From positions 4,486,501 to 4,550,500 of the forward strand of contig JAGUCH010000007.1 of the NCBI GenBank assembly GCA_019096065.1: DNA of 64,000 nt, read 5' to 3'. Under the pieces are notes generated by a model. That model was given only the letters and a program-made list of their open reading frames with translations. It was not told the origin of the DNA and made no database searches. The translations under genes and the position numbers were made by a program. Of the stretch, positions 1 to 24,240 are shown piece after piece; within the stretch, counting starts at the first letter, position 1, and every line of letters begins with the position of its first letter. Source of the stretch: Paracyclopina nana. Its lineage: Eukaryota > Arthropoda > Copepoda > Cyclopoida > Cyclopettidae.

Positions 1-258
1 CGTACTTCCCTATATTGACTCTCATGTGTAACCTACATAGCTAGATACTCCCCTCTCGAGCGTGCATGCATTCATTCTTTCTGTCTCGCTTACAGCTTAC
101 ACGTAAAATACACTCAGTACACATCTCGTATCAAAGTGGATACGTTCGCCTCGATCTGGTAAATCTCGGCGTAGCAGTGCTCACGGTTTCCTGGTACAAG
201 ACCAGGGATCCATCCGACTTAGCTCGAGTAGTGTCACCCACGAGGTCGGGATCCACCA
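1..258 (+). repeat. 5' LTR of element 1 (partial)
   Basis: This matches 6405-6674 almost base for base apart from a 12-bp gap, and ends in ATCCACCA. The first 18 bases of the LTR, including its TG, lie left of the window. Confidence 0.93.
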
Positions 259-463
259 TGGCGTCAGTTCTCAGTCTCTTTGCATAAGAGGCCCTTTCCT
301 AGAAGAGGGAAGGTTTGAGAAGCAGCCGAAGAAGGTTTGTGAGTGGAAAATTTCCGCCACCCTTGGCAGCATCACGACAACAAAGTGTGAGAGGCAGCCG
401 GAGAAGGTTTCGTGAGTGGAATTGTGAAAGTTCCGCCACCCTTGGCAGCATCACAACAAAAAA
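259..463 (+). other. Element 1 leader: primer binding site candidate and tandem duplication
   Basis: The leader opens with TGGCGTCAGTTCTCAG, the position and TGG start expected of a tRNA primer binding site; I do not assign the tRNA. From 317 a unit of about 72-79 bp is repeated in tandem (317-388 and 389-467). Both copies carry the same core, CGCCACCCTTGGCAGCATCAC, in shortened form CCACCCTTGGCAGCATCAC, separated by small indels. It may be a packaging or leader element, but that is inference. Confidence 0.6.
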
Positions 464-481
464 GTGTCAACAAAAGTGTCC

Positions 482-934
482 ATGAGCCAGGACTCAATTA
501 AAAGTGCTGGCGAAGAAGAGTGGCATACTGCAGATCAGAACGTATTTGCAGCACTTCAAAGGCAAGTGAAAGCCTTAGAAGAAGCCAAAGAAGAAGCGGA
601 GGGCCCCGAAGATACGCTCTTGGCAGCCACAAATAGTGACGAGGACACATTTGATACAAGTGTGGTCAGAGCAAATTTAGCGATGACCGAGAAGGAGAAT
701 CCAACTGACTTGCAATTGGCAATCGGAAAGCTTTCCGAAGCCAGAGGTGCAAGAGCACTCGAGGACCTCACCAAACAAATACATAGTCTAAAAGGACAAC
801 AGGAGTTGGTTGTCCAGGCACATGAATGCCGGAGAGAAGCTATGCGAGGCCCTGGAAAGGCAGAAGGATATTTCAGTTTCAGAAGCAAAAGAGCTCCAGA
901 AGCAGAAACAAAAATTGGTCGACCAGGAGAATAG
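482..934 (+). CDS. Element 1 Gag N-terminal coiled-coil ORF (apparently broken)
   Basis: This reading frame of about 150 codons starts at the first ATG after the leader. The product is charged (Glu, Lys, Gln, Ala) with heptad-like spacing, as in coiled-coil N-terminal regions of Gag proteins. After about position 830 the coiled-coil-like composition continues in the +1 frame, not this one. That frame runs to a TGA at 972-974, which is in frame with the ATG at 1002. A one-base indel plus a nonsense codon therefore seem to separate this segment from the main gag-pol ORF. Recoding at either site cannot be excluded. No known domain was recognised. Confidence 0.55.
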   Translation: MSQDSIKSAGEEEWHTADQNVFAALQRQVKALEEAKEEAEGPEDTLLAATNSDEDTFDTSVVRANLAMTEKENPTDLQLAIGKLSEARGARALEDLTKQIHSLKGQQELVVQAHECRREAMRGPGKAEGYFSFRSKRAPEAETKIGRPGE

Positions 935-1001
935 CATCATGCAGATTCTAAATAACCTGCCGGACGAGACCTGAGTCACTCAAGCTGACAAGGTCAAGGA
1001 G

Positions 1002-5867: not shown

Positions 5868-5891
5868 AGTGTTTTTCTCTATGTTGCAGGC

Positions 5892-6107
5892 ATGTCAGAA
5901 GGCCAAGCTAACCGTCCCCCCGTAGATTGGGATCATCCGGATTGGGACCCCAACGCACCTGTCACGAAGTCCGAGGTCGTCAAGATCATAGACTTGAAGC
6001 GTGACGAGTTGGCCAGAGTAGTCAAAGATGATCGCCAGAAGTACGGCATGTTGGTAGCTGCAATGGTAGCTATTGGTGTTGGAATGTTCATATGGTGCTC
6101 AAAATGA
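5892..6107 (+). CDS. Element 1 small tail-anchored ORF (env-like position)
   Basis: This 71-codon ORF lies between pol and the 3' LTR, in another frame. It has a polar, Asp/Pro-rich N-terminus, an amphipathic Lys-rich stretch and a C-terminal hydrophobic segment (GMLVAAMVAIGVGMFIW) ending four residues later. That is a tail-anchor topology. The ATG sits 3 bases after TTTTTCTCTATGTTGCAG (AG at 5888-5889), which looks like a splice acceptor, so it may be made from a spliced message, as errantivirus env genes are. No homology was recognised. The splice use and membrane role are inference. Confidence 0.55.
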   Translation: MSEGQANRPPVDWDHPDWDPNAPVTKSEVVKIIDLKRDELARVVKDDRQKYGMLVAAMVAIGVGMFIWCSK

Positions 6108-6386
6108 TGACCAATGGAGGGGAGGTTGTTTTGACGACATCGCCTTGAAGAGCAACATAGAGAAATGAAGACACTGGATCGGATGATGGAACTGAATTTT
6201 GATACGCTATGCATTTTTCCTATTTTTCTATTTTCGTTAGGTTTTTTATGCTCTTATCGAAATTCTCGCTTGCTAGGTATGTCATAAATCCTAGGCCCCA
6301 AAATTAGTGTAGTTCGAGGTCAATTGATAGGCTAATATGTTAGTGATTACAGCTACCCAGGGGTATCCGTACCCACTTGGGGGAGG
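6108..6386 (+). other. Element 1 3' untranslated region and polypurine tract
   Basis: No long frame was seen here. It ends in the purine tract GGGGGAGG (6379-6386), the usual primer for plus-strand synthesis, immediately before the TG of the 3' LTR. Confidence 0.6.
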
Positions 6387-6674
6387 TGTTATATCACGTT
6401 GAAACGTACTTCCCTATATTGACTCTCACGTGTAACCTACATAGCTAGATACTCCCCTCTCGCGCGTGCATGCATTCATTCTTTCTGTCTCGCTTACAGC
6501 TTACACGTAAAATACACTCAGTACACATCTCGTATCAAAGTGGATACGTTCGCCTCGATCTGGTAAATCTCGGCGTAGCAGTGCTCACGGTTTCCTGGTA
6601 CAAGACCAGGGATCCATCCGACTTAGCTCGAGTAGTAGTGCCTTAAGTGTCACCCACGAGGTCGGGATCCACCA
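6387..6674 (+). repeat. 3' LTR of element 1 (288 bp)
   Basis: It starts TGTTATATCACG and ends ATCCACCA. From 6405 it matches window positions 1-258 with an added 12 bp (TAGTGCCTTAAG region) near 6634. Confidence 0.93.
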
Positions 6675-6850
6675 CGTTCAGGCTGGAAGTATGCCACGAA
6701 CATCCCTTACACCTCGCCCCCGAGGCTCGAGGCTGCTGTGGCTGTGACCAACACCACTCTCTCGCGTTCTGGCTGAAAGAATGCTACGAACATTGACCTC
6801 ACCCTCGCTGAGGCTGCGGTAGTCGAGGCTACCAAAGCTCACGAGCGGGA
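6675..6850 (+). repeat. Diverged 90-bp tandem duplication next to element 1
   Basis: CGTTCAGGCTGGAAGTATGC at 6675 recurs as CGTTCTGGCTGAAAGAATGC at 6765. Both are followed by similar GAACAT and GAGGCT-rich sequence, giving a 90-bp period. In one frame both units read similar peptides (an ATNI motif, then EAAV), so this may be remnant coding sequence. A stop codon interrupts the second copy. Confidence 0.6.
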
Positions 6851-7826
6851 GCACCTTGGGCAGCAGATCCCGTCACCCGCGCCGTCCATGGAGACGCCGA
6901 GTGCGGATGCTGTGCCCCCTGGTTCCATACACCAGGACCGTTTCCGCGTCGAGGCCGGGGGCGCCCCTGGAGAAGGAGGCCACCAACCCCGGGGTCACCG
7001 GAAGGGCATAACACAGTGGGCATTGCATCACTCAACAGAAAGTGCAACGAGCCACTATATGAGAGCTAGTCACTATACATGCATCGCAAATGCTAATAAA
7101 TCAAATTCGATCAACACGATCAATTCTCTGCTCATTCTCATGCTCCCAATTCGATTTGAATACCTGCGCAGCGAACTGCCGGGTCTGCCACACCCCCGCA
7201 CGTCACGATCGACGGCCTCGAGGCCGCGGTCGCCCAAAAGCCACACAGGGCGGGCCAGCAACCCCCCCTGAGGCAGAGCCGGAGCCGCTCCATTTCAATG
7301 CATTTCAACGCATAATTGCCGCTGCTGCAATTTACGCATCGGCCATCTTGCAGTGAGGCAAGAGAGCGCCAATAAACAAGCCGTAAAACTGGCCCCTTTA
7401 TGAGGGCTGCATGCTGTGCTTCACATGTGCAAGGCAATTATCGAGATTGTCTGTCAACGCACTAAAAGCCATTATTCTCGCATGCACAGCAGTCGCTCCA
7501 AACAACCTTCTTGTTTTACGATCGTCAAAATCTCCTATCGAGGACCGGATCGCACAAACAATTTCAATTGCCATGCTAAAACGATCACCCGAGGGTCGGA
7601 AAAATGCAGCGGATGCTGCGGGTGAGCGGTCGCTGCACAGGGGACGAGAGAGGCTATAAAAGATCGAGTACCAGGGGGAAAAGACACAGTTCTTTGGATT
7701 CACTCCAAGTTGTTACACCCCTGCTCTCGCGCTTTTTACGCCACTCTCGGTAAATATTCATTCACTTACTTTCACCAGGGCCTTAAGCCAACCCCTTTTC
7801 GCTTCTGCAGCCGCCGCTCATTCGTC
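6851..7826 (+). promoter_or_regulatory. Element 2 leader or 5' LTR-like region with TATA box and possible splice donor
   Basis: No convincing gene is seen. TATAAAAG at 7655-7662 is followed about 40 bases later by TCACTCC, an initiator-like sequence, the layout of a gypsy LTR promoter. CGGTAAAT (GT at 7750-7751) could be the donor for a spliced env message whose acceptor is at 13834. No matching 3' copy of this region was found, so I do not call it an LTR. Confidence 0.4.
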
Positions 7827-9194
7827 ATGCCTGCCGTTACTCATTCTCCTCCTCATGCCTCTGCAAATGAGGGACTCGGCGCGTCCCCGGACAGCCATGA
7901 GCCGAACATTGACCAACCGGGGCTCCAGCGAAGCTTCGAGGACGACCTCAGCGACCTGGGGGCCCAAGGGCCCGCCATTGGAGCCCGGCCAGGCCTAGAC
8001 CCCCTCGGGTTTCCTCGGGCCCCGGGGACGACTACTGCACCTACCACCGGGGCACGGCCCCGCACCGAGACCAGGGAAGATCCGCCACTCACCCAAGCCG
8101 AAGCTAACCTGGCCGGCGCCAGCCCAGGCACCGACGGCCTGTCGCAGGCCATGCTGCTGCAATTTATGAAGTCCATTGAGGCCCAGCGGCAGGCCGATGC
8201 GCAAGCTCGCCAGCGGGAGGCCGAATTACGCCTCTTGGAACTCAACACCCGCCGCCTCGAGGCCGAGAATGCCGCCGCCCGCAGCGGGCGCAAGCGCAAA
8301 CTCGAGGAGTTTGAGGACACGGAGGCCGACAAGTGGCTCACCTTTCGCCTCCATGTGGAAGCCACCTTCTTGGGGTCCAAGGATACCGAGGCTACCAAGA
8401 AGCTGGAGGTCAAACACGCCATGGTGGGCGCGGCTCTCCGCACCATCAACGAGGTGGACCTGTTCCAGACGGATGAGAACTTCACCCTCAAGCACCTGCT
8501 CGATGCCTACGAGAGGTTCTTCGTCACGGCCACGTCTTCTCAGGTGGCCCGCATCGCCCTCGAGACGGCTCATCAACGCGCCGATGAAGGAGTCCCACAG
8601 TGGCACGCCAGGCTGCGCAGCATCTTCGTCCGGGCTAAACCCGAGTTGGCCAAGGAAGTCGAGACCTACCCCGACCTGATCCGCATGTTCGTGACCAAAC
8701 TGCATCGCAAGGATGTGGTCATGGGCATTGCCGGACATAAGTTTGTCACCATGTCCGAGGCCCTAGAGGCCGCTAGCCAAGCCGAGTGCTGGTTGTCATT
8801 AGGGCAAGGCAAGGGCCGCGTCGCCTCCATGACTCCCGGGTCCGGCAACGACTCCCCAGTGGTATGCTTCTATTGCGAGCGCAAGGGCCACCGGAAGAGC
8901 GAGTGCAGAACCCTTGACTCCGATAAACGTAACGGCCTCTACGATCCCAAGGTGGACAAGTGGGCCCATGCGGCCTCCCTCAACAAAGATCAGGGAACTC
9001 GAGGTCAATCCTCCCGAGGTCGAGGACGACGACGGACCTCTGACCGAAAGGGGGCTTCCGATCGGCACGGCTCGTCCGGCAAAACCAGCAAGAAGCCGCG
9101 AGTCAACGAGATCCACGAGGCCGAGTCCAGGGAAGAGCCCGAGTCCGAGGCCTCGGACGACTCGGCACCGGGAAACGACTTGACCCGGTTGTAG
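7827..9194 (+). CDS. Element 2 Gag
   Basis: This 455-codon ORF starts at the ATG that opens MPAVTH. An acidic and Pro-rich N-terminus precedes a long Glu/Arg/Gln/Ala coiled coil (about 125-180). A capsid-like helical region follows (LTFRLHVEATF to about 320, resembling the retrotransposon gag domain). One zinc knuckle (CFYCERKGHRKSEC, near 347) and a basic Arg/Ser/Lys-rich tail complete it. The ORF is intact. The stop TAG overlaps a -1 frameshift signal (GGGAAAC, 9170-9176), and protease is read from frame -1. Confidence 0.85.
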   Translation: MPAVTHSPPHASANEGLGASPDSHEPNIDQPGLQRSFEDDLSDLGAQGPAIGARPGLDPLGFPRAPGTTTAPTTGARPRTETREDPPLTQAEANLAGASPGTDGLSQAMLLQFMKSIEAQRQADAQARQREAELRLLELNTRRLEAENAAARSGRKRKLEEFEDTEADKWLTFRLHVEATFLGSKDTEATKKLEVKHAMVGAALRTINEVDLFQTDENFTLKHLLDAYERFFVTATSSQVARIALETAHQRADEGVPQWHARLRSIFVRAKPELAKEVETYPDLIRMFVTKLHRKDVVMGIAGHKFVTMSEALEAASQAECWLSLGQGKGRVASMTPGSGNDSPVVCFYCERKGHRKSECRTLDSDKRNGLYDPKVDKWAHAASLNKDQGTRGQSSRGRGRRRTSDRKGASDRHGSSGKTSKKPRVNEIHEAESREEPESEASDDSAPGNDLTRL

Positions 9195-9211
9195 AGAGCT
9201 CCGGCCGGGTC
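9170..9211 (+). promoter_or_regulatory. Predicted -1 ribosomal frameshift signal, element 2 gag/pro
   Basis: The heptamer G GGA AAC (9170-9176) lies in the gag frame in the canonical X XXY YYZ phase. A 5-base spacer follows, then a 7-bp stem GACCCGG/CCGGGTC (9182-9188 with 9205-9211). The -1 frame is open across the site and runs straight into protease. GGGAAAC is a known retroviral gag-pro slip site. Function here is inferred. Confidence 0.65.
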
Positions 9212-12200
9212 CCCTCACCTTCCCTCATATTAGCAGCTCTCGACCACATCGCCAGCCATCAGCAATTCGTGGCCCAAGTTCCGATTCGCATCGGCAAGGT
9301 CAAGGCCAGGGCTCTGGTCGACAGTGGCAACAGCTGGCGCACATGTATCTCCGAGAATTTCGCACGTCGGCTCGGAGTTTTTCCGCATGGCCTCCGGCCC
9401 ATGCCCGACATGCCCGCCGTGGGCACCGCCCACGCGCAGCAGCGCCTCCAAGTCCTGGGAGAGTTGCGGCAGCCACTACGGGTGCAGCTAGGCAATCACC
9501 CCCACTCCTTCTCGATCCGGCCCGCGGTGGTGCGAAACCTCTCTATGGATTTCAATCTGTCGGGGCCGTTCCTGAGCCATCATCGCATCGATCAACTCCA
9601 CTCCCAAGGGACCCTCCGGGTGCATGGGAAACAGATTCCGTTGGTGGGCGCTCTCCAAGCCACTGTGGCCCAAGAGGAGTACGAAGTCCGGATCTTGCGA
9701 CCTGTCCAAATTCCAGCCCGCACTGTCGCCTTGGTGGCCGCAGTAGCTACCCACTGGCCTCATGGGTCCACGAGGTCCGCCGCACTCGAGGCGGAGCCCC
9801 AGTTCGCCGCACAGACGCAGCTCGCCCCCTGGAGCGTTGCATTAGACCAGCCGAGGGCCGGCGGGAACTTGTCGGTCGGGGTGTTGAATCCCCTGGATCA
9901 CCCGCTCCGTCTCAAAGGTGGAGTGGTCTATGGCACCCGCCGCACCTATGAGGGAGCCGATGTGCCCGGCGGATCCGAGGCCAGCCCTGGTGTGCAAGCC
10001 GTGCGTGCGTCCACCGCCGCGCGCAACTTCGGCCAGAAGTCGCCTGAAGTCGACACAGCCTGCCGCTATGAGCAATTTAATTTTATCATCGCCACCTTCA
10101 AACTGAAAGACAATGAAATGCGCAAGGGGGACCCCAAGCGGCTGGCCCAGGCTACCACGCTGCTCGCTGCCCATGTGAAGGCCTTTTCGCTTGACGGCCG
10201 CACCGGGCAGACCAAGTTGGTCGAACACGCCATCGACCTCAAGCCAGGGACGAAGCCCATCAACATCCGTCGATGACCTATCAACCCGAATCTCGAAGCT
10301 TCCTGAAGGAGCAGATCAAGAAATGGCTGGACGAAGAGGTTATCACACCTATCACGTCCCCTTGGTCTGCGCCTCTTGTCCCCGTCCGGAAGAAAGACGG
10401 CACGCTGAGATGGTGTGTCGACTATAGGGAACTCAACAAAGCCACTGTGGTCGACTCGCACCCCATCGGAGATGTCAGAGACAATCTCAGCCGACTGGAC
10501 CGCTCGACAGTGTTCTCGACACTGGACGCAGTGGGCGCCTTTAACGTGGTCCCCATTCGAGCGGAAGATGTCGAAAAGACCACCTTCTCTACGGGAGATG
10601 GCTCCTACGCCTTCCTCAAGATGCCCTTCGGCCTCACTAATGCGCCCAAAACGTATAGTCGTCTCAATCGGTTGGTCCTAGAAGGAGTATCATGGGATGT
10701 CGCCTTGCCCTACCTCGACGACTGCCTGGTTCACTCCGCCGACTTCGAGTCCCACCTCTGCAACCTCCGCTTAGTGTTGCAAGCCCACGAGAAGGCGGGG
10801 CTCCTGTTGAAGCCATCCAAATGCCACCTGTTCCAATCCAGAGTGACATACCTGGGACACGTTGTCACCCCACAAGGCCTCGATGTCATGCCGGCCTACA
10901 TCGACCTCATCCGTGAGTGGCCACTGCCTAATACCAGGAAGCAACTGCGGATATTTCTCGGTAAGGCCAACTACTACCGATCCTTCATCGAAAAGTATCA
11001 ACACGTCGCGGCACCCTTGTCCGACAAGCTTTCCAAGGACGACGGCACCAGCGACAACCACGTCTTCCAGCCCACTCCTGAGTACCGGGCCGCCTTCGAC
11101 GAGCTCAAGCGCAGGTTGACCTCGGCGCCCGTGCTGGCCTACCCTGACTTCGCTTCGCCTAACCCCTTTATCTTGGACACTGATTTCTCGCAAGAAAACA
11201 GGGCAGTGGGAGGAGTTCTCTCCCAAGTTCAGGATCGCAAGGAACGGGTCATTTTATACGGTGCCAAGAAGCTGAATGCGGCTCAGAGCAATTACTCCGC
11301 TAACCAGGGCGAGCTGGTGGCCGTAATAATCTTCATCAAGTAGTTTAAGTACTACTTGCAACATCGCCGTTTTATCCTGCGCACTGATCATCGGGCCCTC
11401 CTCTGGATCCGCTCCATGGAGGCCCAAACTGGCATGCTAGGCCAATGGCTCGACACCATCTCCAACTACGACTTCGAAGTAGTTCACCGGGCCGGGGTCA
11501 AGCACGGGAATGCTGACTCCCTCAGCCGCGCACCTCATTTAGAGTCGCGGGGAGATCACATCAGCTCGGATGTATCGGACGACGACTTCTTCCGGGTAGC
11601 CAGTTTGAAATTGATCCCCACAAAGCCAGAATTGTGGGCTGCAGCTCAAGAGGAGGATGACGATTTGGTCCTCTTGAAACAGCTGGTCCGGCTGAAACAG
11701 TCGCCCTCGCAGGAGAACCTCAACTCTGCGTCATCTCAAGGCCGGGTGTTACTGGAGCAGCTCAATACCATGACCCTGGATCAACAGGGGGCGCTCCGCC
11801 TGCTCGACAGGAAAAGGCAGCTTTCGCGATTGGTGGTACCCCGCAAGTGGCAAGAAGCCAGCCTCCGCCACGTGCACGACACCATGGGGCACCAGGGGCG
11901 CGACTCCGTGGTCCACCGGGCCGCTCAGCATTTCTACTTTCCGGGCATGACGCGCCTGGCCGACGAGGTCGTCAAGTCCTGCCTCCTCTGCCAGCGAACT
12001 AAGCCAGCCCAAAAGAACCAGCAACACACCCTCCGGTCGCATCATGCGGGCTACCCGTTAGAAATCTTGAGCCTGGACTACGTGGGGCTGTTCCAGCCTT
12101 CCTCGAATCGCCACCGATACTTGTTCACCGCGGGCGCGTGTTCACCAAATTGTTCGAAGCCTTTTCGTGCGGCTCCAATGATGCCGAGACAGCGGTGCGG

Positions 12201-13640
12201 TTTTTAACCACCGAAATCGTTCCTCGATTCGGCCTTCCAGAAAGACTCCACACCGACCAAGCGACCCACGTCACGGCTCATCTCATGCGGGAAGTGTGCG
12301 CCGCTCTTGGGATACAGGCCACTACTACTCCTTCGTACAACCCGCGCAGCAATCCGGTTGAAAGGGCGCACCGGGATCTCAACGAGCTAATCCGGAAGAT
12401 GATCAAAGGTCGATATGCGGATTGGGCCGAGGTTGTCCCCTTTGCGCTCTTCGTACTCTGCACCACCAAGAACCGCTCTACTGGCCTGGCGCCATACGAA
12501 ATGGTCTTCGGCCGTCAACCCTCGACCAACCTAGATTTGATCTTCGGGGACCCGCAACCGGCAGTGGCGAAGGCCACACAGGCAGGTCGTTTCGCCAAGC
12601 AGCTCAAGGAAAGAATACAGCTGGCGCATGAATGGGCACGTAAGAACATCTCCACCTCCATCGAACGACAGCGCCGAGCCTACCACATGGACAAGCGTGC
12701 ATTCCGTGTAGGGCAGAGAGTGTGGCTGTTCACTCCAAAGGTCATCCCGCGAATCTCCAAGAAACTGCAAACCTTTTGGACTGGACCTTGGACCATAGTG
12801 AAGCAGGTCAACGAGCTCACTTACGAGATCGCCCCCGATCCATCATGGGCTCACACGCGAAACCAAGTCGTTTCGGTGGATCGCCTTAAACTGTACGTCA
12901 CGTATGAGCAAAATAAGGACGACCCGCCCACAGCACCCCCGGCGGAGGATGTGGACCTGTCAATGCTGGGCGACGAGTCCACCGAGTTTCTCACGGACCC
13001 GCCAGACAACCCCGTGACAACATCGACCAGCGACTTCTCCACGCCTTACGAGTACGCGGTAGCTCCGATGGACCGGGAGTACGGGTTTCCGGAAGCCAAT
13101 AATGACCCTATTCCGGTTTTCAATGATGACCCGACCATACCTGAATACGACTGCACCCGATACGAACCTGATCCGGATGACCGGGCATCCACCCCAGAAA
13201 ATGAGCCTGAGACCGGCAGCCTGCCTACGCAAAATACACAACAGCTACAGGCATCTCCTCCCCGTGTGAATAGCCCTCAGCGCACGAGCACGGTAGTTAA
13301 GCGGAAACGCCGGTCAAATGCGCAAATGCTCCAGGCCGACACAGAACATTTCTTAGGTGGCCCCGACGCATTCTCAAAGCGATCACGTTCAAGAACCCGT
13401 AGTGGTGACAGGCAAAATGTACAAAACGACGACATTTTACTGCTGCAACACCTGCAGCCTACTCAGCCACCTATGCATCAAGTGGCAAGGTATCTGTTGC
13501 CACCATTAGAGCCGCGACCACTACCTCTCCGGCCGTCAATACCATCACCCATCAGAGAAGTGTCGCATTCAACATCGTTGTCGGCGCCATCAGCAGCGAC
13601 TGCAGAAACGTGCGATGATGTGTTCCAAGACGAAAAATAA
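9195..13640 (+). pseudogene. Element 2 Pol (protease, RT, RNase H, integrase), interrupted
   Basis: Read by -1 frameshift from gag. The segments are: to 10276, protease (ALVDSGNSW) and the RT N-terminus; 10273-11343, the RT core with catalytic YLDD near 10710 and the start of RNase H; 11344-12207, the rest of RNase H (RTDHRALLW) and integrase with its H-H-C-C zinc site (HDTMGHQGRD...CLLCQ) and first Asp (SLDYVG); 12138-13640, the remaining catalytic residues (HTDQATH, then PVERAH) and a GPY/F-like module (FWTGPWTI). A long acidic, Pro/Ser-rich tail follows, with no chromodomain seen. Breaks are a one-base frame change near 10273, TAG at 11341-11343 and a frame change near 12130-12140. Motif order is that of Ty3/gypsy. 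Confidence 0.85.
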
Positions 13641-13812
13641 CTACAGTGTACAAAGACTCTCAAATCACCAACATTCTGCTCCCTCACGACAAAGTTTGGG
13701 GGGGTGCGCTATTATTATTACTTCACATATGTATCATACCGTGCATAATTCACATCTGCTCATGTTATAAACCATGACGTTCGGTCGCAAGCAATGTTAA
13801 GACACATAATAA

Positions 13813-13835
13813 TCGCTCTCTTTCTCTCTTGCAGT
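13813..13835 (+). promoter_or_regulatory. Splice acceptor upstream of env (element 2)
   Basis: CTCTCTTTCTCTCTTGCAG is an almost pure pyrimidine tract ending in an AG at 13833-13834, 56 bases before the env ATG. Errantivirus env is translated from a spliced RNA, so this is where such an acceptor would be expected. Confidence 0.55.
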
Positions 13836-13890
13836 CTGAGTGACCAACTAACTACCTCTTAAAAGATACACTTAGCACGCTACCTCAACC

Positions 13891-15813
13891 ATGCACCCAG
13901 GCCATTGCTTGTGCAACCCTACACTGATGCTCATGGCATTCTTCATCTACAGCTACTGGATCCTCCTAGGCGAGGTGGCTCAAGCGGCAGCCTTTCCAGG
14001 ACAATCGCCTTGCCCGGCGGACCTGTTCACCCCAGACGCCAAGGTGACCTCGTTCACCACGTGCGACTGCGCGCATCCGGACGCCATGCACGAGGCCATC
14101 GACTTGAGCCAGCCTGAACTCTGTGAAGACATCCGCAGCTCTTCCCAATCACCGGTCAATATCACGATCCAGGTTTTACAGACCGCGTCGACCCTTTCCG
14201 TCAAGGCCTACCGATGCCGGGTACACATCTCACGAGAAGTCACCCGCTGCGGATACGACAGCATTAGCTACGGAAGCCAGATGACCGACGTGAATCGACC
14301 CTATCTGGTAACACCTCAAGCATGCCGAGATGCTGCCGAGAAACGCTTCCTCCTGGTGGAGGACAAAAAGGTCCAGGTCACGCTTAACAACCCGGTGTCC
14401 TTGTCCTACTTCTCGAAGGGCGGGCTCGACAAGGATCACAAATGCACGACGACCACATTTACCAGCGGCGGGATCACCTTCTCCCGCTCGTACGAAACCA
14501 CCACCATCCACGCCCTGGTGGAGCCCATCTACGGCAAGCTCAACACCACGAACGGCCGGGTGGTTTTCTCCAACCACCTGACTGCTAATTTCCAGGATTT
14601 GATTGTGCAGGACGACGCGGAGGGCACTATTGTGTGGCCCAAACGCAAGGCTCCTCGCTGCGAGGACGAGCTAAGCGAGGTATACAAGGGACCGGCCGTG
14701 CTGTACCCTCATCGCAATTCCTCCAGCCTCAGCAGCAACACTGGCCACCTGGGAGATCTACTCCTCCTCGCCCACGAAGAGGAGTCGCGGTTTGCGGGGT
14801 TTGTCTTGAAGGGTGTGCAATCCATGTGCCAGCGGCGGCTCTTCACTACGCAGCTCCGCGACTTCGCAGTCTTGATCGTTGGACCAGGGGACGGGCCTCT
14901 CCAGGCCAAGTACCTTCACCCCGAGGACATGGACGGCGCGAATATCCAGACCCAGCTGGCGTTCGTACACTCACAGCATGCGCTGCACATCCAGGACCGA
15001 TTCAAGTTCCTCCAGGAGCTCATCTGCAAGAACGAACGCTCGATTCTGCACTCTAAGCTTCAGAGCATGGCCTCCGGCTCCTTGTCGTACGCCACCCTCG
15101 ACAGCCATGGACCTGGCCACCTGGTTACCCGCGCTGGGGCCGTGGCCTATGTCACATCTTGCTACCCGGTACAGGCCGTCACGCGGTCTATTGCCAACTG
15201 TACACAAGAAATCCCCGTGCTGGTGAACAATGAAACACGGTTCGCCGACCCCCTCTCCTTTGTGCTGACCGACCGGCCCAGTGTGGTCCCGTGTGACTCC
15301 ATCACGCCTATCAAGTGGTGAATCCACAACCAGTGGATATGTGCGACTCCACAGATCCATGCTTGCATTGCCCCGACGCAACTCAATCCCATGTCGGATG
15401 CGGCGCCCCGGAGCGGGCATTATGACATCAGCCGAGGACTAGGAGGTGGCGTGTTCTCCGCAGAACAGCGAGCCAACCATATCCTCTACCTCCACCTGTT
15501 CAGCAGCCGGGAGGCTGTGGTAAATACGATCACGAGCAATGTTCTACATAACTCCCTTATCACAGGCAGTCGGTCAACTACGCTATGGACACAGGAGGAC
15601 ATAGACCAGATGGTGGACCATGTCAGCAGCGCGATCATCCCGTTCTTTAGCTCGGTGGGGAAGTACTATTCCTACTTCACGGGAACCCTCATCACCATCG
15701 GCCTGATCAAGCTGATCCTCGGCGCCGTCATTCGAATGGTTATCCTATACCGGCGACGGGACTGGGCTGGTGGATGTTATTGGCCCTCTGGCACACGGCC
15801 TTCCTCATGGTAG
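13891..15813 (+). pseudogene. Element 2 envelope glycoprotein, one in-frame stop
   Basis: The first 476 codons begin with a hydrophobic signal peptide (residues about 9-33, likely cleavage after AQA). A Cys-rich ectodomain follows with N-glycosylation sequons (NIT, NTT, NSS, NCT, NET) and paired cysteines near the N-terminus (TTCDCAHPD, then C after about 20 residues, then RCG). A TGA at 15319-15321 interrupts the frame; the same frame stays open to 15813 and contains a membrane helix (TLITIGLIKLILGAVIRMVI) and basic stop-transfer residues. The predicted whole is a type I fusion-type glycoprotein. The cysteine pattern recalls glycoproteins found in other arthropod LTR elements and, possibly, chuvirus-like viruses. 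That family assignment is a guess that a profile search must settle. Confidence 0.7.
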
Positions 15814-16833: not shown

Positions 16834-17529
16834 GGGTGAGCACAATAACGTCGAATTTAGAGTTGTTTTTACGTCGAATGAGTGAGTCGCATTAGCGTCG
16901 ACATCGGGCATTCACTTAAGACGACACTTTTGTCATAGTTGTTTTAATCTCGACATCCGGGCATACAATAAAGTCGACAGGTTTGAACATGTTCTTTTAA
17001 TGTCGACACCGGACGCCTTAGCGTCGACAAAAGATATTTTTTTGTCAACACACATCAGCATTATAATAGGTTACTGCATATTTGACTGTTTTAGCATTTT
17101 TTTCATAGAGGAAGTAAAATCTTAGGCTAGGTTTACTTTTTTATTATAACTGATATTTTGGGAAAAAATATCTCAGAGAAATAATGAAAAAACAAGACTT
17201 TTTTAATGGAGCAGAATGGATTTTGTTACCAAAAGACTGAGTCCAAAGTCAGAATCTGAAAAATGATTTTACAATTTACCAAAATAGCTCCAAATTCTGT
17301 CTACGCTAAAGCATGGTTTGTCGACATAGAAGCATGAGGTGTCGACATTAATGCATGATGTGTCTATGCTAATATTACATTGGTATTTCGACACAAAAGC
17401 AACTCTCACAAAAGTGTCGATGTAAAAACATCATGTAGTAAAAAAAAATGTCGACATTAAAACATCTCTCGCAAAAGTGTCGACGCAAATGCAACTCTCG
17501 CAATAGTGTCGTCGTTATTGATGGCGCCC
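16834..17529. mobile_element. Mutator-like non-autonomous element (696 bp) with 9-bp target duplication
   Basis: The left end reads GGGTGAGCACAATAACG and the reverse complement of the right end reads GGGCGCCATCAATAACG, a diverged terminal inverted repeat. The flanks are perfect 9-bp direct repeats (CAAAACATC at 16825-16833 and 17530-17538). Inside, GTCGAC-containing motifs recur at least ten times, in inverted orientation in the two halves (for example GCGTCGACA left, GTGTCGACGC right). There is no coding capacity. A 9-bp duplication with GGG ends points to the Mutator superfamily; assignment without a transposase is inference. Confidence 0.75.
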
Positions 17530-17538
17530 CAAAACATC

Positions 17539-18077
17539 AACTGATCCTCTAGATTGTCCTGAAGTTAAAGGCAAGATGTTGTAGACCGAATAAAACACAT
17601 GAAATACACGACAAATATCCAATGAAAGACTAGTGAATAGCGAAATAAAAGAATGATAAGAAAAAAAGAGGTGTTTTCTTTGTAATGGCGTGATTCGAAC
17701 TGAACCTTTTATTGAGCGAGCAAAAGAGCGCAATACTCAGCGCAACGCAAGGCAAACAAGGTGAATACAAAAAGGTGGGGTACAAACACAAGTCTTGAAG
17801 TGAGAGGCAAGTCCTAAAGTTTCAGCCAAGTCCTAAAGTTTCTGCCAAATCTTGATATATTGGCCAAGTCCTGAAGTATCAGCCAGGTTGTGAAGTATAT
17901 TGCATTTCAGCTTTAGTTTCAACTGATTCAAAGTATTAGGTCAGCCTAAATTCTATTATGGTACTATGTATTAGCGATAGTTTATATTCCTAGTTTGGAA
18001 AAGATGATGTTCCTTATCTGTCACAGCAGTTTCTATTCCTTTACTGTCACAGTAGATCCTATTCCTGCTCCACCATG
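17539..18077. repeat. Intergenic tandem repeats flanking a Mutator-like element
   Basis: No gene is seen. A ~21-bp unit (GCCAAGTCCTAAAGTTTC and variants) repeats about five times at 17789-17900. A second array of ~27 bp (GTCACAGTAGATCCTATTCC type) lies at about 18027-18077 and resumes at 25284-25440 on the far side of the next element. Confidence 0.6.
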
Positions 18078-19023
18078 GGGCGCCATTACTAAACACTACT
18101 GTTTTTACCGCTACGCATTAGTCACTACTGTTTTTGAACATATATTATAAGCACTACACTACAGACACACTAAGATCTACTGTCCATCTACTGATGTAGT
18201 AACCAATACAGAATTAAATATACTCTTTTTGTACTGACATACTAAGCACTACACTACCACTGACACTTTAGTCACTACTCCTGTCACATTAGGAGTACTA
18301 AGATTACACATTGGTATATTATTGGTATATATTATTTTAAGGTCAGGCATTTAAGGTTTGGCTTGTGAGTTTATGTTTTTAAAGTTAGGCTTTTCCACTA
18401 GAGCTTTTAAAGTATGACATATTTAAGGTTAGGTAATTCAGGCTATGCTTTCAATGTTTGGCTTTTGAAATTATGATTTGCAAGTTAGGCTTATAAAGGA
18501 AGGCTTTAAAGGTTAGGCTTTTCAGGTAATACTTAAGAATTGGGAGGGTTTTTTTTTGTTTTTGCTTTGGCTTTGGCTTTTTGATTTATTGTACAATGTT
18601 AGTGTCCGCCCAACTAGGAAAAATTAAAAATCGGGGATCGAAAATGATTCCAGAATCATGAGAGGAATTTTCGCCAGAATCTTACAAAACATCTCTCAGT
18701 ATTGTATAAACTTGTTAGCCTCTCCTGTAGATGAAGGAACATTTGCACTAAAAATTATCTATAAATTGTCCCTATAAGTAGCAAATAACTTGTCAGCCTA
18801 TTTGGAGATGGATGCCCCAAGCAACCTGGCGACAGAACAGCAACAATAATTGCTGACAGGAAAGGAACTTGATTTCCCTAATTCTTGCTAAGAATTTGAA
18901 GATGTTTGCAATTCTACTAAATTGGCCCCTCAAAACCTTGTTTTTGTTGCGTATTCGCAAAAAATGCTTTTTGTGCCTTTTTGGCCTATATGAGCTTTTA
19001 ATTCTTTTAAATTCAAGTAATTA

Positions 19024-19264
19024 TGTTATGTTTTTATAACTTTCATCATTCATGGCGCTAGCGCGTCATCCTTCAGTAATATAGTAGTATAGTAGCATAG
19101 TTCGAGCCGCGCTGCCTAACCACACTTTCACCTAGCAGGATGTGCAATGCGATTTCACCTTGACAGTACATTGTATATACAGTGCTTGGTTGAGAAATAA
19201 ACTCAGTTGTGGCTTTGTACGAGAGAAGTCAAGTTCCATAATGTAGACACCAAAATTCACAACA
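19024..19264 (+). repeat. 5' LTR of element 3 (241 bp)
   Basis: TG...CA ends, AATAAA within (GAGAAATAAACTCAG), identical by eye to 23996-24236. The 4-bp target copy ATTA precedes it; a shared A could extend this to AATTA. Confidence 0.95.
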
Positions 19265-19333
19265 ACTGGTGGCAGCTCACTTACCTGCAGCCCTGGAGGG
19301 AATGAGAAGTGAGTGATGCTGAGTCCTATTTAA

Positions 19334-20488
19334 ATGGCTGATAGTGAGGACGAATATTATGAGGACGAATTTTACGAAGAGGCTTCATCAGAGGGAACAA
19401 TTCCACCTACTGCTCCACCACAAGAGGATAACACAGAAACCTCCGCATTTCCTCAACAATGTCTGTTCACTATGGCTCAGCGTAATATCAAGGCAATTGA
19501 TGTACCCGAATTTAGTGGGGACCCGGCAGTTGACAAGCTGCAAGCACGAGCATGGGCTAGGAGGATCGACGATTTAAGAGCCCTTGCCAACGAAAACATC
19601 CCAGCTGGACAGCCGCAAAGATGGACGGACGAAATGACAGCCATGTACGCTGCCATGGCACTCAAAGCCAAGGCAGCACAATGGTATAACACCCTAAAGG
19701 AAGAGGGATTTGCTCCTAAAAAGTGGAGTGGAGTATCTGGTCTGAAGAAGGAGTTCCTGGATCATTGGCACCATGAGGCCACTTTAGCCGAACAGTCCGC
19801 AATCGAGGACAGCCTGGTGCAGGAGGCATCAGAATCCGTGCGGGATTTCTATGACCGTGTAAAAACTGGAGTCATGACCCTAATGGAAACTTTCATCGTC
19901 CTTGGTGAGGGCGAGTATGCCACAAATGATGCTGCCGTAGAAGTGTGCAAGAGGAGCGCATATGTGTTCGCATGCCGGCGAAAGTTCATTCAAGGTCTGT
20001 TACCTGCCATCAAGAAGCAGGTGATCGTGCATGACATCACGGACCTTAAGGCAATCTTAAAGGTTGCTAAGCGTGTAGAGGCCTCATTGTCAAGTGAAAA
20101 GAAAGCCACTGTACCAGTCCCTGAAGTCCATGCTGTTGAGCAAGCCGACAGTGCTCAGGAGAGCAATCCTCACAACCAGCCTCTGACACTAGAAGCACTT
20201 GTGAATCTCATCAATGGAAGTGGAGCGCAAGGACAAGCGCAAGGACAAGTGCAAGGACAAGCCCGAGGACAAGTGCGGGGTCCTGCAAGTGGACAGTTCC
20301 GAGCCAACATGGTCTGCTGGTATTGCACCAAGAAGAATCATAGTGAGGCTGAGTGCTTTTCCAGGCAAGCAGATGCTGCTAAGGGCATGTACAACCCAAG
20401 GCCTGGCAGTAAAAGAGCAACAGAGCAGGAGGCAAATAAGGTCAATGAAGTTCGTGCCTCCTACCATTCCAACCCTTTAAACTGGTAA
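19334..20488 (+). CDS. Element 3 Gag
   Basis: This 384-codon ORF begins at ATG with an acidic Asp/Glu/Tyr-rich N-terminus. A capsid-like helical domain spans about 45-250 (WARRIDDL, KAAQWYNTL, FLDHWHHEA, VRDFYDRV; the pattern of the retrotransposon gag domain). A Gly/Gln repeat (GQAQGQVQGQARGQVRG, about 297-315) and one zinc knuckle (CWYCTKKNHSEAEC) follow. The ORF is intact. The last codons form the slip site T TTA AAC; the stop TAA lies just beyond it, so pol is entered by -1 frameshifting. Confidence 0.9.
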   Translation: MADSEDEYYEDEFYEEASSEGTIPPTAPPQEDNTETSAFPQQCLFTMAQRNIKAIDVPEFSGDPAVDKLQARAWARRIDDLRALANENIPAGQPQRWTDEMTAMYAAMALKAKAAQWYNTLKEEGFAPKKWSGVSGLKKEFLDHWHHEATLAEQSAIEDSLVQEASESVRDFYDRVKTGVMTLMETFIVLGEGEYATNDAAVEVCKRSAYVFACRRKFIQGLLPAIKKQVIVHDITDLKAILKVAKRVEASLSSEKKATVPVPEVHAVEQADSAQESNPHNQPLTLEALVNLINGSGAQGQAQGQVQGQARGQVRGPASGQFRANMVCWYCTKKNHSEAECFSRQADAAKGMYNPRPGSKRATEQEANKVNEVRASYHSNPLNW

Positions 20489-20520
20489 ACGACCAGGGTG
20501 GGCTCCACACCACTGGTCGT
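20476..20520 (+). promoter_or_regulatory. Predicted -1 ribosomal frameshift signal, element 3 gag/pol
   Basis: The slip site T TTA AAC (20476-20482) is in the gag frame. A 6-base spacer (TGGTAA, holding the gag stop) is followed by a hairpin: ACGACCAG (20489-20496) pairs with CTGGTCGT (20513-20520), and GGTG (20497-20500) pairs with CACC (20508-20511), with a 7-base loop and one bulged A. The -1 frame is open from here through protease and integrase. TTTAAAC with a 3' structure is among the strongest known slip signals. Confidence 0.8.
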
Positions 20521-23427
20521 CGCAAGGTCGTTGAGCTTTTTCACGCAATCACAAGTTTCAGCCTGCTATCCTCGAATGAGAATACCAAACGACCTTTTGT
20601 ATCAATCCACAGCCTTGGAGCCACCTTTGAAATGTTGTTTGACACTGGCTCCAATATTTCCCTGTTATCGCGTATGGCATTCAGGAGAATTGCCCCCCAA
20701 CTAAGACCTCAGAGAATTACAAACGCTCCGATGTTACGTGCAACATGTGCTTCCGGAAACCCTTTAAGGATCAATGGACTTTATGAAATAGACTGTATGA
20801 TAGAAGGCCGACAGTTGAAGTGGCCATTTTACGTGTGCGAGGGACTCGCACTTGATGGGATCGTGGGTATTGACCTGATCCATGCTACCGGCTTGTTTTA
20901 TGATCCCATATCGATGAAAATCCGCTCTGCAAATAAGTTTCCACTTGAGGCCAGAACTCAGAAGAAGACGTACATACCTGCCAGAAGTGTCGCTACAATT
21001 TCCGTGCTGCTGAAGAACCAGGATAATGGGCCCTTAGCTCACTTTGAAGGATGTCTCCAAAGAAGCGATGCCATCCAACTTTGCAAGGAGGATTGCCTCA
21101 TCCGTAATAATCAACAAGGAATCGCTAATATTAAGGTTACTAATGCAGGATTATTGCCTTTTAAGATAGACAAGGTTTCTTTCACAGGGCAAATTTTGAG
21201 TGTCGATAAGATTATCCCAGTACATGATGTGTTTTTAAAAGATAAAAATGTTATAGGGAGGCCTTCTAGACAGGTGGAGGACTACATTCTAAAGCATGCA
21301 AATCTTGATCACCTTTCTCCTAATCTATGTCAGAGTTATTTCAAGTGTTTACTTCATAATTCTGACATTATTTCCACTTCAGAATTTGACTTGGGTGACT
21401 GCACCCTGATGACACACAAATTTGTCACACATGACCACCGACCAGTTCATGCTAGACAATTCCAGATTCCCATGTCACATCTTGATGAAATCAACAAAAG
21501 CATTGAAGATTGGCTGGAGATGAACACTTTGGAACCCTGCAATTCTCCCTGGAACTCAAGTATTTTCTGTGTGCCCAAGAAACTGACAGGAGCTACTGCT
21601 TGGAGACCAATGGTCGAGTATAGAAATCAAAGGATTGTTCCTGTACTTCTGCGAGGTGGTGAACCTCACAATATCCCTGTTAAGGCCATTATGGACATGG
21701 CATTTCTGAAAAAGCCACGAGAGCTTCTGAGAGTTGGTGAACCTCGCAATATCACTTTTGAGGCCATGGAGGACATGGCAGTTCTGAAGAAGTCACAAGG
21801 GCTTCTGCAAGGTGGTGAACCTCACAATATCACTTTTGAGGCCATGGAGGACATGGCATTTCTGAAGAAGTCAAGAGGGCTTCTGCAAGGTGGTGATGAA
21901 CCCCACAATATCACTTTTGAGGCCATGGAGGACATGGCATTTCTGAAGAAGTCACGAGGGCTTCTGCAAGGTGGTGAACCTCACAATATCACTTTTGAGG
22001 CCATGGAGAATATGGCAGTTCTGAAGAAGTCAAGAGGGCTTCTGCAAGGTGGTGATGAACCCCACAATATCACTTTTGAGGCCATGGAGGACATGGCAGT
22101 TCTGAAGAAGTCACGAGGGCTTCTGCAAGGTGGTGAACCTCACAATATCACTTTTGAGGCCATGGAGGACATGGCAGTTCTGAAGAAGTCACGAGGGCTT
22201 CTGCAAGGTGGTGAAACCCACAATAGCTCTGTTGAGGCCATGGAGGACATGGCAGTTATGAAGAAGCTACGAGAGCTTCTGCAAAGTGGTGAAACCCACA
22301 GTAATTCCGTCGAGGCCATGGAGGTCATGAAGGACATGGCAGTTATGAAGAGGCTACAAGAGAGTGGTGAACCCCACAGTAGCACTGTTGAGGCCATGGA
22401 GGACATGGCAGTAATGAAGAAACTACAAGAGAGTGGTGAAACCCACAGTAATTCCGTCGAGGCCATGGAGAGCCTGGCAGTTATGACGAAACTCCGGAAA
22501 TGTATTGAAACCCTTAGTATAGTTGTTGACGCCATAGAAGACAGGGCAACCATGAGGAAGCTACAATCTACAGACTTGGTTGTTGCGGCTTTACTTTCCT
22601 TTGTTAAACAAGGACTTGTACCCAGACAACCTGAGTTAAAACGGATTATTAAAAGATATGGCCCTATTTTTGGCCTCAAGAATGGCTTGTTGTTTGTGAT
22701 GAGTGGGCCCAAATCAGTGTTGGCAGAACTGGCTGTTTGTCATGCTGACATTATTAGTGCTGCGCATGCAGCTGTTGGGCACAAGGGCATCAACAAAACC
22801 AGTGAAAGAATTCATGAGCAGTATTTTTGGCCTAGTTTATTGACTGATGTTGAGGAATACATCAGTTCATGTTGGAAATGTGACAACACCAAACCTGAGC
22901 AATCACATCCAGTGGAATTGCTGCCCCACCAGCAACTCAAGGGCCCCCTGGAGAGGGTCCATGCTGACCTCTTTGGACCTTGGAGGGATTCAGATGGAAA
23001 GAAGTATATTTTGGTTATCATGAAGTCTGTTAGTAAGTATGCAGAGTTTGTCACTCTGGTGGACAAACAATCTGACACTGTTGCTGGGGCCATTTTTAAT
23101 CGATGGATTGCAAGAATCGGCTTGACAGCTGTGCTCATTGCTGATGGAGGGACAGAATTCACCTCACAGTTGAGTCAATCTCTATACAATCTGCTCCGGG
23201 TAGATAAGAGCACAACCAGCCCTAGTCACCCTCAATGCAATTCAGCTGCTGAAGTTATTAATAAGCACACTATAAGTTACTTGCCGAAGATGCTTGATAC
23301 ATTTTCTCCTTTGAGTGAGACAACAAAAATGAGTCCATTCTTCCTCCTTTTTTGGAGTGCATCCCAGAAAACCATTAATGGATCCAAATATGGTTTTAGA
23401 TACCATGATCAAGCCAGAAAACTTTAG
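20483..23427 (+). CDS. Element 3 Pol: protease, RT remnant, repeat array, integrase
   Basis: One open frame entered by frameshift (first ATG 20632). Protease has LFDTGSNISLL near 20640. The RT leader is present (DHRPVHARQ, INKSIEDWL, PWNSSIFCVPKK) up to WRPMVEYR near 21620, where the first RT motif should begin. There the sequence passes into about twelve repeats of 22-30 residues, so no YxDD and no RNase H exist. After the array come an integrase linker and zinc site (HAAVGHKG...CWKCDNTK) and the catalytic core: D in HADLFG, D in IADGGTEF and E in SAAEVINK. Near the end a six-T run (23348-23353) shifts the frame, and the C-terminal extension continues in the +1 frame. Confidence 0.9.
21655..22572 (+). 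repeat. In-frame 78/81-bp tandem repeat array inside pol
   Basis: About twelve units; the type unit is 78 bp (26 residues: GGEPHNITFEAMEDMAVLKK then SRGLLQ), with an 81-bp variant carrying one extra Asp codon. The central units (21730-22200) are nearly identical. The outer units diverge progressively, notably at the 3' end where units shorten to 22-26 residues (SGETHSNSVEAME type). Every length change is a multiple of three, so the frame is kept. Units look like a short helix plus a Gly-Gly-Glu-Pro-His-Asn turn. The minus strand is also partly open here, which I regard as incidental. Confidence 0.95.
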
Positions 23428-23836
23428 GAAAGGGTTATTGGTTTGGTTGGATTGCCCAGAACTTCTGAAATTCAACCCCAAAATTCCCCTCAAATCAGAG
23501 GAACCAGCTGCCAGCATTGCCTCTCCGATGACAACAACACCTCCACCTATTAAGCAAGAACCAGACTCTCCACTTGCGGAAGAGGTACTCATTCATGACG
23601 ATGTGAATGAACCCACTCAAGATGATGAACCACCAGACTTACCATCAAGAAGTAACCCTGGCTCTCCTAGGAAACTACTCAACCGTTTCCGTGACAGCTT
23701 CCGAGGGGGACGAGACCCCACAAGCTCATTGACACCCAATCAGGCTAGAGCTCAACGAGTTCTGATAGAAGACCAGCCTTTACCAGCCAGGGCGCCAGAA
23801 TACAAGCCTGGCCGGGGGCGACCTAAGAAAAAATGA
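23357..23836 (+). CDS. Element 3 Pol C-terminal extension, shifted frame
   Basis: This frame carries the expected continuation of the integrase C-terminus (HPRKPL, then GLLVWLDCP). A Pro/Ser/Glu-rich acidic segment (PPIKQEPDSP) follows, then a basic AT-hook-like end (GRGRPKKK). It is in +1 phase relative to the ORF ending at 23427, and the offset is explained by one extra T in the run at 23348-23353. It could be mutation, assembly error or slippage on the run. A GRGRPK tail might bind AT-rich DNA, which is inference. Confidence 0.65.
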   Translation: MHPRKPLMDPNMVLDTMIKPENFRKGLLVWLDCPELLKFNPKIPLKSEEPAASIASPMTTTPPPIKQEPDSPLAEEVLIHDDVNEPTQDDEPPDLPSRSNPGSPRKLLNRFRDSFRGGRDPTSSLTPNQARAQRVLIEDQPLPARAPEYKPGRGRPKKK

Positions 23837-23995
23837 TGTCTTCCTTAACATGACTTGGTCATAATTATCCTGTTTGACCTGACCTGACAAACCCGAAGTT
23901 TGACTTTACACTTTCTAACTTTTATGACTTGGTGGTGGTTTTCGTTAATACCTTCATCCCCCTGTTAACAACAGCTTTCTTTAGCTTGGGAGGGA

Positions 23996-24236
23996 TGTTA
24001 TGTTTTTATAACTTTCATCATTCATGGCGCTAGCGCGTCATCCTTCAGTAATATAGTAGTATAGTAGCATAGTTCGAGCCGCGCTGCCTAACCACACTTT
24101 CACCTAGCAGGATGTGCAATGCGATTTCACCTTGACAGTACATTGTATATACAGTGCTTGGTTGAGAAATAAACTCAGTTGTGGCTTTGTACGAGAGAAG
24201 TCAAGTTCCATAATGTAGACACCAAAATTCACAACA
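23996..24236 (+). repeat. 3' LTR of element 3 (241 bp)
   Basis: Preceded by the purine tract GGGAGGGA and followed by ATTA. Sequence identical by eye to the 5' copy. Confidence 0.95.
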
Positions 24237-24240
24237 ATTA

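Follow-up and report, generated by a model that had tools for sequence, protein, structure and literature searches.

The element described here most probably belongs to a non-autonomous Ty3/gypsy-type family that lives off a related family bearing reverse transcriptase (RT) in the same genome; from sequence comparison, we put the probability of this reading at roughly 0.8. The RT and RNase H of its pol have given way to an in-frame tandem array amplified from the element's own linker, and the peptide encoded by the array appears to be drifting. The element lies in the window, the whole stretch of 64,000 nucleotides of Paracyclopina nana DNA that was analysed, and its parts are listed in Table 1.

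Structure of the window element and origin of its array

Table 1. Coordinates of the window element and its parts (positions are those of the window)
Feature	Position	Strand	Remarks
Left target site duplication (TSD) ATTA, 4 bp	19020..19023	+	Matches the right-side copy
Window element	19024-24236	+	Ends in an LTR pair; flanked by the TSD ATTA
5' LTR, 241 bp, TG...CA	19024..19264	+	0 mismatches with the 3' LTR
Putative primer binding site	19267..19284	+	First ten bases common with RT-bearing relatives (comparison of 12 array and six RT-bearing copies)
gag, 384 aa	19334..20488	+	Retrotrans_gag 23 bits, under the cut-off of 24.1
Open pol frame, stop to stop	20449..23427	+	Protease, RT stub, array, integrase core
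TTTAAAC heptamer	20476..20482	+	Putative -1 frameshift site, upstream of the gag stop
Mid piece (protease-RT spacer and RT start)	21001..21624	+	Stops after WRPMVEYR, where homology with RT-bearing relatives breaks
Junction NQRIVPV	21625..21645	+	Corresponds by homology to RNIPE, where the RNase H of RT-bearing relatives ends
Tandem array	21646..22560	+	26-27-residue units, then 23-29-residue units, degenerate last unit
Integrase, H2C2 zinc finger and core with D, D, E	22561..23424	+	Spacing from second D to E 35; C-terminal domain mostly gone
Remaining pol C-terminus	23354..23836	+	Out of frame in the window copy through a +1 near 23348 common to L010
Mosaic tract	23533..23644	+	7/7 diagnostic sites as in RT-bearing L024/L025/L027, not as in array siblings
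Purine tract GGGAGGGA	23988..23995	+	Putative PPT, adjoins the 3' LTR
3' LTR, 241 bp	23996..24236	+	0 mismatches with the 5' LTR
Right TSD ATTA, 4 bp	24237..24240	+	Matches the left-side copy

The original prediction, made from the letters of the window, described a pol frame that stays open up to the integrase and turns, where the first conserved RT motif should start (WRPMVEYR), into about twelve repeats. The frame is indeed open from 20449 to 23424 (992 aa), and the homology to RT breaks at 21624, after which the array starts. The array itself is real, but the count was slightly off, as it consists of 11 units, the last of which is a 44-residue composite. Unit lengths of 69, 78 and 81 bp were found, and the TRF scores of its 78-, 159- and 237-bp rows (1016-1046), together with its recurrence at 14 loci, leave no concern about a chance origin. 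The predicted removal of RT and RNase H in frame was borne out, since searches of the forward frames found neither the YxDD[VIL]L nor the TDHKP pattern at any of the 14 array loci.

Other features were observed elsewhere in the window. A further gypsy-type element occupies positions 1-6674; it contains a 1,621-aa frame, and its LTR-like repeats (1-258 and 6405-6674) are 94.8% alike. A gypsy-type element that extends across several frames (RVT_1, RNase H, integrase) was located at 7710-15321; it is GC-rich (63% at 8001-10000), and next to its pol, on the downstream side, a 476-aa frame has Monjiviricetes_fusion as its Pfam match (E 5.7e-49), which makes it an env-like gene of the type known from negative-strand viruses. 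A cluster of short tandem repeats, with periods of 14 to 53 bp, lies upstream of the window element at 16898-18527. The window also carries a TIKI metalloprotease gene, for which the top matches, among the best 120 of 969, reached 91%; among the named matches, that to Anas was 59% and covered 53% of the query, and that to the copepod Lepeophtheirus was 56% and covered 96%.

The genome of P. nana (92 Mb, 10 contigs) was searched with the array DNA, and 40 of the 41 candidates were scored, the counts being lower bounds. At least 14 array loci, the window's included, and at least 26 single-unit loci were recovered, and one further single-unit locus (L031) was reached through an integrase search. 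The window copy is thus not unique, and the search for other copies with the same repeat domain that had been proposed as a check was successful. All 14 array loci (L009-L022, the window copy being L022) and nine RT-bearing loci (L023-L031) were retrieved.

The RT-bearing copies carried YLDD in 9/9 cases, and an RNase H motif without a stop in the scanned segment in 8/9, L029 being broken; the segment of L028 matched both RVT_1 and RNase H. In these relatives, the peptide ELLRGGETHSVAIEAMEDMAAMKK occurs once, between the RNase H end and the integrase. Among the six copies in which this linker was printed, it was exact in three, had its first E changed to K in L029 and L030, and differed by two changes in L031; the other three retrieved copies (L025-L027) showed a single unit-sized match at the same place. 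The units of the window array (GLLQGGEPHNITFEAMEDMAVLKKSR and similar) are copies of this linker peptide. As all nine RT-bearing copies carry one unit as their RNase H-integrase linker, the array is the amplified linker of the element itself, and a foreign origin was therefore ruled out. The prediction that a repeat domain had replaced RT and RNase H stands in this form, without the notion of a foreign domain. The Pfam matches of the array (DrrA_P4M, SDH_beta and ANC1_spectrin) were all under their cut-offs and were taken as chance, and no homologue of the array region was found at E 0.001 among the 8000 protein-collection candidates scored.

The interval between the pol flanks was also compared. 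Of 25 array-free loci matched on both sides, 23 had an interval of 1,182-1,183 bp, one of 1,169 and one of 2,030; these lengths derive from coordinates only, and the nine such relatives that were read were all RT-bearing. Two loci with an integrase match had no mid match. In the 14 array copies, the distance ranged from 702 to 1,788 bp and was a multiple of three in each, with 7 to 22 units per array. The segment lost with RT and RNase H lies between VDYR and the final residues ahead of the linker, and a GATTAT repeat lies close to both breakpoints in RT-bearing L024. The 5' junctions of L020 and L021, both broken copies, were unlike those of the other array copies; as to a stepwise loss of RT, either the array would predate the last deletions or one deletion would have grown.

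An integrase follows the array, as predicted, but it is not whole. In the window copy, the Pfam match to H2C2 was over the cut-off and that to rve under it. The zinc-finger pattern was found in 9/9 array copies checked, and D, D and E were matched in 7/9, the second D being missed by the pattern in L017 and L019. The integrase end was aligned for ten array copies (all but L013, L016, L020 and L021), and the C-terminal domain was mostly absent in the window copy and its nine aligned kin. Relative to the RT-bearing relatives, gaps of 6, 51, 114 and 297 bp were common to all ten; the 297-bp gap spans the RWEGPY motif. Out of 20 integrase homologues, three were inspected by eye; none had a repeated linker and all three had sequence in the region of the C-terminal domain. 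The sequence that these distant homologues have there supports reading the gaps as losses.

The 24 bases at the putative PPT were identical across 12 array copies and six RT-bearing copies. The TTTAAAC heptamer, presumably a -1 frameshift site, was present in all 12 main array copies and in seven of the nine RT-bearing copies; the exact pattern was not found in L020, L021, L029 and L031.

Selection on the array lineage and the fate of its open frame

Selection was compared for gag, the protease piece (PR), the mid piece and the integrase piece (IN). Pieces covered below 80% were left out per copy (LTR of L021; gag of L017 and L021; PR of L021; mid of L016 and L021; IN of L013 and L020; tail of L009, L020 and L021). 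Substitution counts and trees were made without L020 and L021, and L016 was excluded from the main counts because its integrase row has an internal duplication and is misaligned. Among the RT-bearing copies, dN/dS was 0.06-0.21 for mid and IN and 0.07-0.33 for gag and PR. Within and between the array groups, the values were 0.66-2.26 for mid, 0.64-1.19 for IN, 0.23-1.75 for gag and 0.22-1.28 for PR, and those of gag and PR between the array groups remained under 1 (0.23-0.61).

Over mid and IN, counts by site in 11 array copies gave 71 nonsynonymous against 17 synonymous changes, with no stop; this did not differ from the expectation of no constraint (25.7% synonymous, p 0.18). The RT-bearing copies gave 26 nonsynonymous and 44 synonymous changes and one stop (p 7e-11). 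The fixed differences between the families (55 nonsynonymous, 30 synonymous) lay between the two regimes. The plain reading of these sequence counts is that the array lineage is no longer under constraint. For the array itself, units were split by letter pattern and dN/dS was taken from the 26- and 23-residue units only; it was 1.03 for the former (n=112, 59 distinct) and 0.40 for the latter (n=40, 13 distinct). Gag, PR and the 23-residue units may therefore still be constrained.

In seven of the 12 main copies (L022, L010, L011, L012, L015, L018 and L019), pol can be read without interruption from the heptamer across the array and into the integrase, as counted by comparing ORF starts by hand with heptamer positions; in the other five, the frame is broken before or within the array. 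Inside the array, ten of the 14 copies have no stop, L013 has one, and L017, L020 and L021 have two each. A frame-breaking +1 in a T run near 23348 is common to the window copy and L010 and cuts their frame where the integrase core ends. A 1-bp gap within the last pol codons is common to L017 and L019, and private frame-breaking indels occur in the pol of L009, L014 and others. Stop calls in the array group numbered five in gag (two shared, three private) and one, private, in PR, and in the RT-bearing group three in gag and one in PR, all private. The two shared gag stops may have their origin in L012, L016 and L018, three copies with an altered start of gag, in which the gag homology begins 26 bases late.

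These observations bear on two alternatives to drift. The first holds that the unbroken frame alone matters and not its sequence. Translation of pol to its end would aid packaging of the same RNA, possibly through ribosome transit, escape from RNA decay or a C-terminal tail kept on the Gag-Pol fusion, and the array and the stubs would serve as frame-neutral filler. This is possible but unlikely. All four common deletions in the integrase part are multiples of three in the ten aligned copies, whereas the indels past the stop codon in L017 and L019, of 1, 19 and 1 bp, are not; such deletions are not predicted by pure drift and count against the reading that we prefer. The lack of stops among the 88 array changes in mid and IN has a chance of 0.025, at a time when amino-acid change was near-neutral. 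However, this deficit disappears once L016 is counted (103 nonsynonymous, 23 synonymous and three stops), although it is the row with the misaligned integrase. The stop calls in gag and PR and the two pol frame-breakers that each occur in two copies also speak against a need for the open frame, and units of 78, 81 and 69 bp preserve the frame by themselves. Some early or past demand for an open frame in the array lineage is possible. Selection on this lineage, present or past, for an unbroken pol frame irrespective of its content, with translation to the pol end keeping the RNA mobilisable and the self-made array as filler in place of RT, seems improbable to us.

The second alternative was raised by the original prediction, which took the preserved frame as a sign of a benefit to the element from the repeat protein or from the linked integrase and suggested dN/dS across the repeats as a check. 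On this view, selection would maintain the sequence of the array protein, or of an integrase joined to it, for a task performed for the element. The flank intervals in multiples of three, the in-frame integrase deletions, the seven open frames, the matched catalytic residues and the low dN/dS of the 23-residue units are all in its favour. They are outweighed by the near-neutral dN/dS of the 59 distinct 26-residue units and of the flanking pol, the excess of nonsynonymous changes in mid and IN relative to the RT-bearing copies, the loss of most of the C-terminal domain, the inherited frameshifts, the stops within four arrays and the varying number of units. A selected repeat protein was dropped as the main reading on the dN/dS values; the predicted usefulness is unsupported, and we consider it distinctly improbable. 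The comparison suggests that the array peptide has no detectable selected function at present and that its open frame is mostly inherited.

Recent movement of the two families and probable exchange between them

Twelve array copies have two LTRs, and all 12 are bounded by matching 4-bp TSDs. In the window copy, the LTR pair agrees over 243 bp, counting one flanking base per side, which confirms the identical LTRs and the target duplication of the original prediction. The LTR pairs of the 12 copies had no mismatch in eight cases and 1, 2, 4 and 4 mismatches in the others (one of those with 4 also having 3 gap columns), and those of RT-bearing L023-L028, the copies compared on that side (L029-L031 being left out), had none. 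The TSDs and near-identical LTRs indicate that both families moved recently, and for the array form the expectation of recent movement thus holds across several copies. One array copy, at 2852-7894 of the L019 region (1-8784, C3), apparently lies inside a broken copy of the array-free family, in opposite orientation.

Two further explanations of the array copies were weighed. That they are dead and were multiplied by segmental duplication or gene conversion instead of transposition, as the near identity of L011, L014 and L015 across the pieces compared might suggest, is extremely improbable, and segmental duplication was ruled out for the 12 complete copies covered by the test (L020 and L021 lying outside it) by a TSD in each and by 600-bp flanks that are alike between copies at one 37-bp stretch only. 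An assembly artefact, in which the array was collapsed or misjoined between RT and integrase, is hardly credible given that the junction VPVLLRGG is alike in 12 copies at unrelated places with differing array lengths, though arrays are hard to assemble and the exact unit number per copy may be off.

The relationship between the families was further analysed by trees and identities. The array copies formed one clade, with a support of 100 for mid and for IN, 95 for gag and, short of significance, 92 for PR. The best trees of the LTR and the 3' tail did not unite them, but the AU test did not reject a single array clade for either the LTR (p 0.247) or the tail (p 0.48). Identity to the main RT-bearing group (L023-L028) was 88-91% in mid and 87-91% in IN. 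In the 3' tail, it was 96-99% for the window's group (L022, L010, L011, L012, L014, L015 and L018) and 92-94% for L013, L016, L017 and L019.

Seven of the nine diagnostic tail sites of the window copy, all within the mosaic tract, agree with L024, L025 and L027 and not with its siblings, while the two tail sites upstream of the tract and 8/8 diagnostic LTR sites match the siblings. Because the AU tests do not reject a single clade and the LTR sites are sibling-like, the case for exchange rests mainly on these seven sites. The tract fits a short exchange, either by template switching in shared particles or by gene conversion. In gag, L016 falls with L012 and L018, although it belongs to the other array group by its LTR and tail; this points to exchange among the array copies too.

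The preferred reading, of an array family dependent on its RT-bearing relatives, would involve the following steps. In an ancestor, the 78-bp RNase H-integrase linker would have been duplicated into an array, and RT and RNase H (about 1.1 kb), together with three larger parts of the integrase C-terminus, would have been deleted in frame. The RNA has retained the LTRs, the primer site, the purine tract and the frameshift heptamer, and the particles, RT and integrase of the RT-bearing relatives would copy and insert it. Template switching between co-packaged RNAs may have swapped 3' segments, as the mosaic copy suggests, and probably also lengthened or shortened the array. Both the order of these events and the mechanism of array growth are what we infer. 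The original prediction that RT must act in trans was right in that an external source is needed and that RT-bearing relatives exist; supply in trans is itself deduced, and it is the most likely source of RT for the array form, an assignment helped by the mosaic tract of the window copy.

Relation to known elements

The assignment to the Ty3/gypsy type rests on the LTR ends and TSDs and on the pol order of the relatives; the array form itself has no RT or RNase H. TG...CA LTRs with a short, 4-bp TSD were found in all 12 two-LTR array copies, and the order protease, RT, RNase H, integrase was found in the RT-bearing relatives, the protease by motif only; one of 20 integrase matches was gypsy-named (32% identity). 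The array family is non-autonomous in that it lacks an essential enzyme and shows several independent recent insertions, and an intact-enzyme family with shared ends, which the original prediction had called for, was found in the same genome. TRIM and LARD elements have no coding capacity between their LTRs, and both classes were rejected for the window copy, which encodes gag and a 992-aa open pol frame. TR-GAG, which has gag only, was likewise rejected, as the array family has an integrase with H2C2 over the cut-off and rve under it.

Related systems have been described. The BARE2-type and RLC_Angela elements of wheat and barley are non-autonomous LTR elements with autonomous partners, for which template switching or gene conversion has been proposed to explain exchange (PMC9744471). 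In the parts of that paper available to us, as is probable for the array family, a defective family is moved by a related intact one and has LTRs that follow those of its partner; the coding sequence of non-autonomous Angela is full of frameshifts and stops and the gag of BARE2 is disrupted (PMC9744471), whereas the array family lost RT and RNase H through in-frame removal, has an array at their former position and keeps an open frame in many copies. A group of 38 elements from Culex is similar in comprising arthropod non-autonomous LTR elements with tandem arrays, but these have, as far as the accessible text states, no coding sequence and no known master copy, and in elements of this sort the usual place of repeats is the 5' or 3' UTR (PMC3286476). 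In the array family, by contrast, the array lies in frame inside pol, and both the source unit and the master family are known.

TR-GAG of Arabidopsis also moved without encoding RT, and its transposition is directly evidenced; it keeps the gag frame alone according to the portion of the source consulted (PMC8704663), whereas the array family also has a protease and an integrase core. Retand and Ogre are LTR elements with variable tandem arrays; according to the accessible sections, these arrays follow pol, precede the 3' LTR and are not part of the pol frame (PMC11963269, PMC7004042). The non-autonomous pararetroviruses of grasses share the trait of noncoding control regions kept helper-like by recombination next to defective coding parts; they are plant pararetroviruses, and no array is mentioned in the sections of the paper available (PMC5491270). 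Among the matches listed, and within the parts available of the open-licence literature on RT-less or array-bearing and copepod LTR elements, no in-frame array replacing RT was found. What is new here is an in-frame array born from a pol linker and replacing RT, with the master family present; related kinds were already known.

The array was born inside a coding frame, whereas the examples in the literature, as far as the sources consulted extend, place arrays in untranslated or noncoding parts. One small genome holds a complete pair: a single-unit master family and a derived family in which an array of that unit replaces RT, each with young insertions. This pair lets tests ask what the RNA must keep for copying in trans, and whether the open frame is needed.
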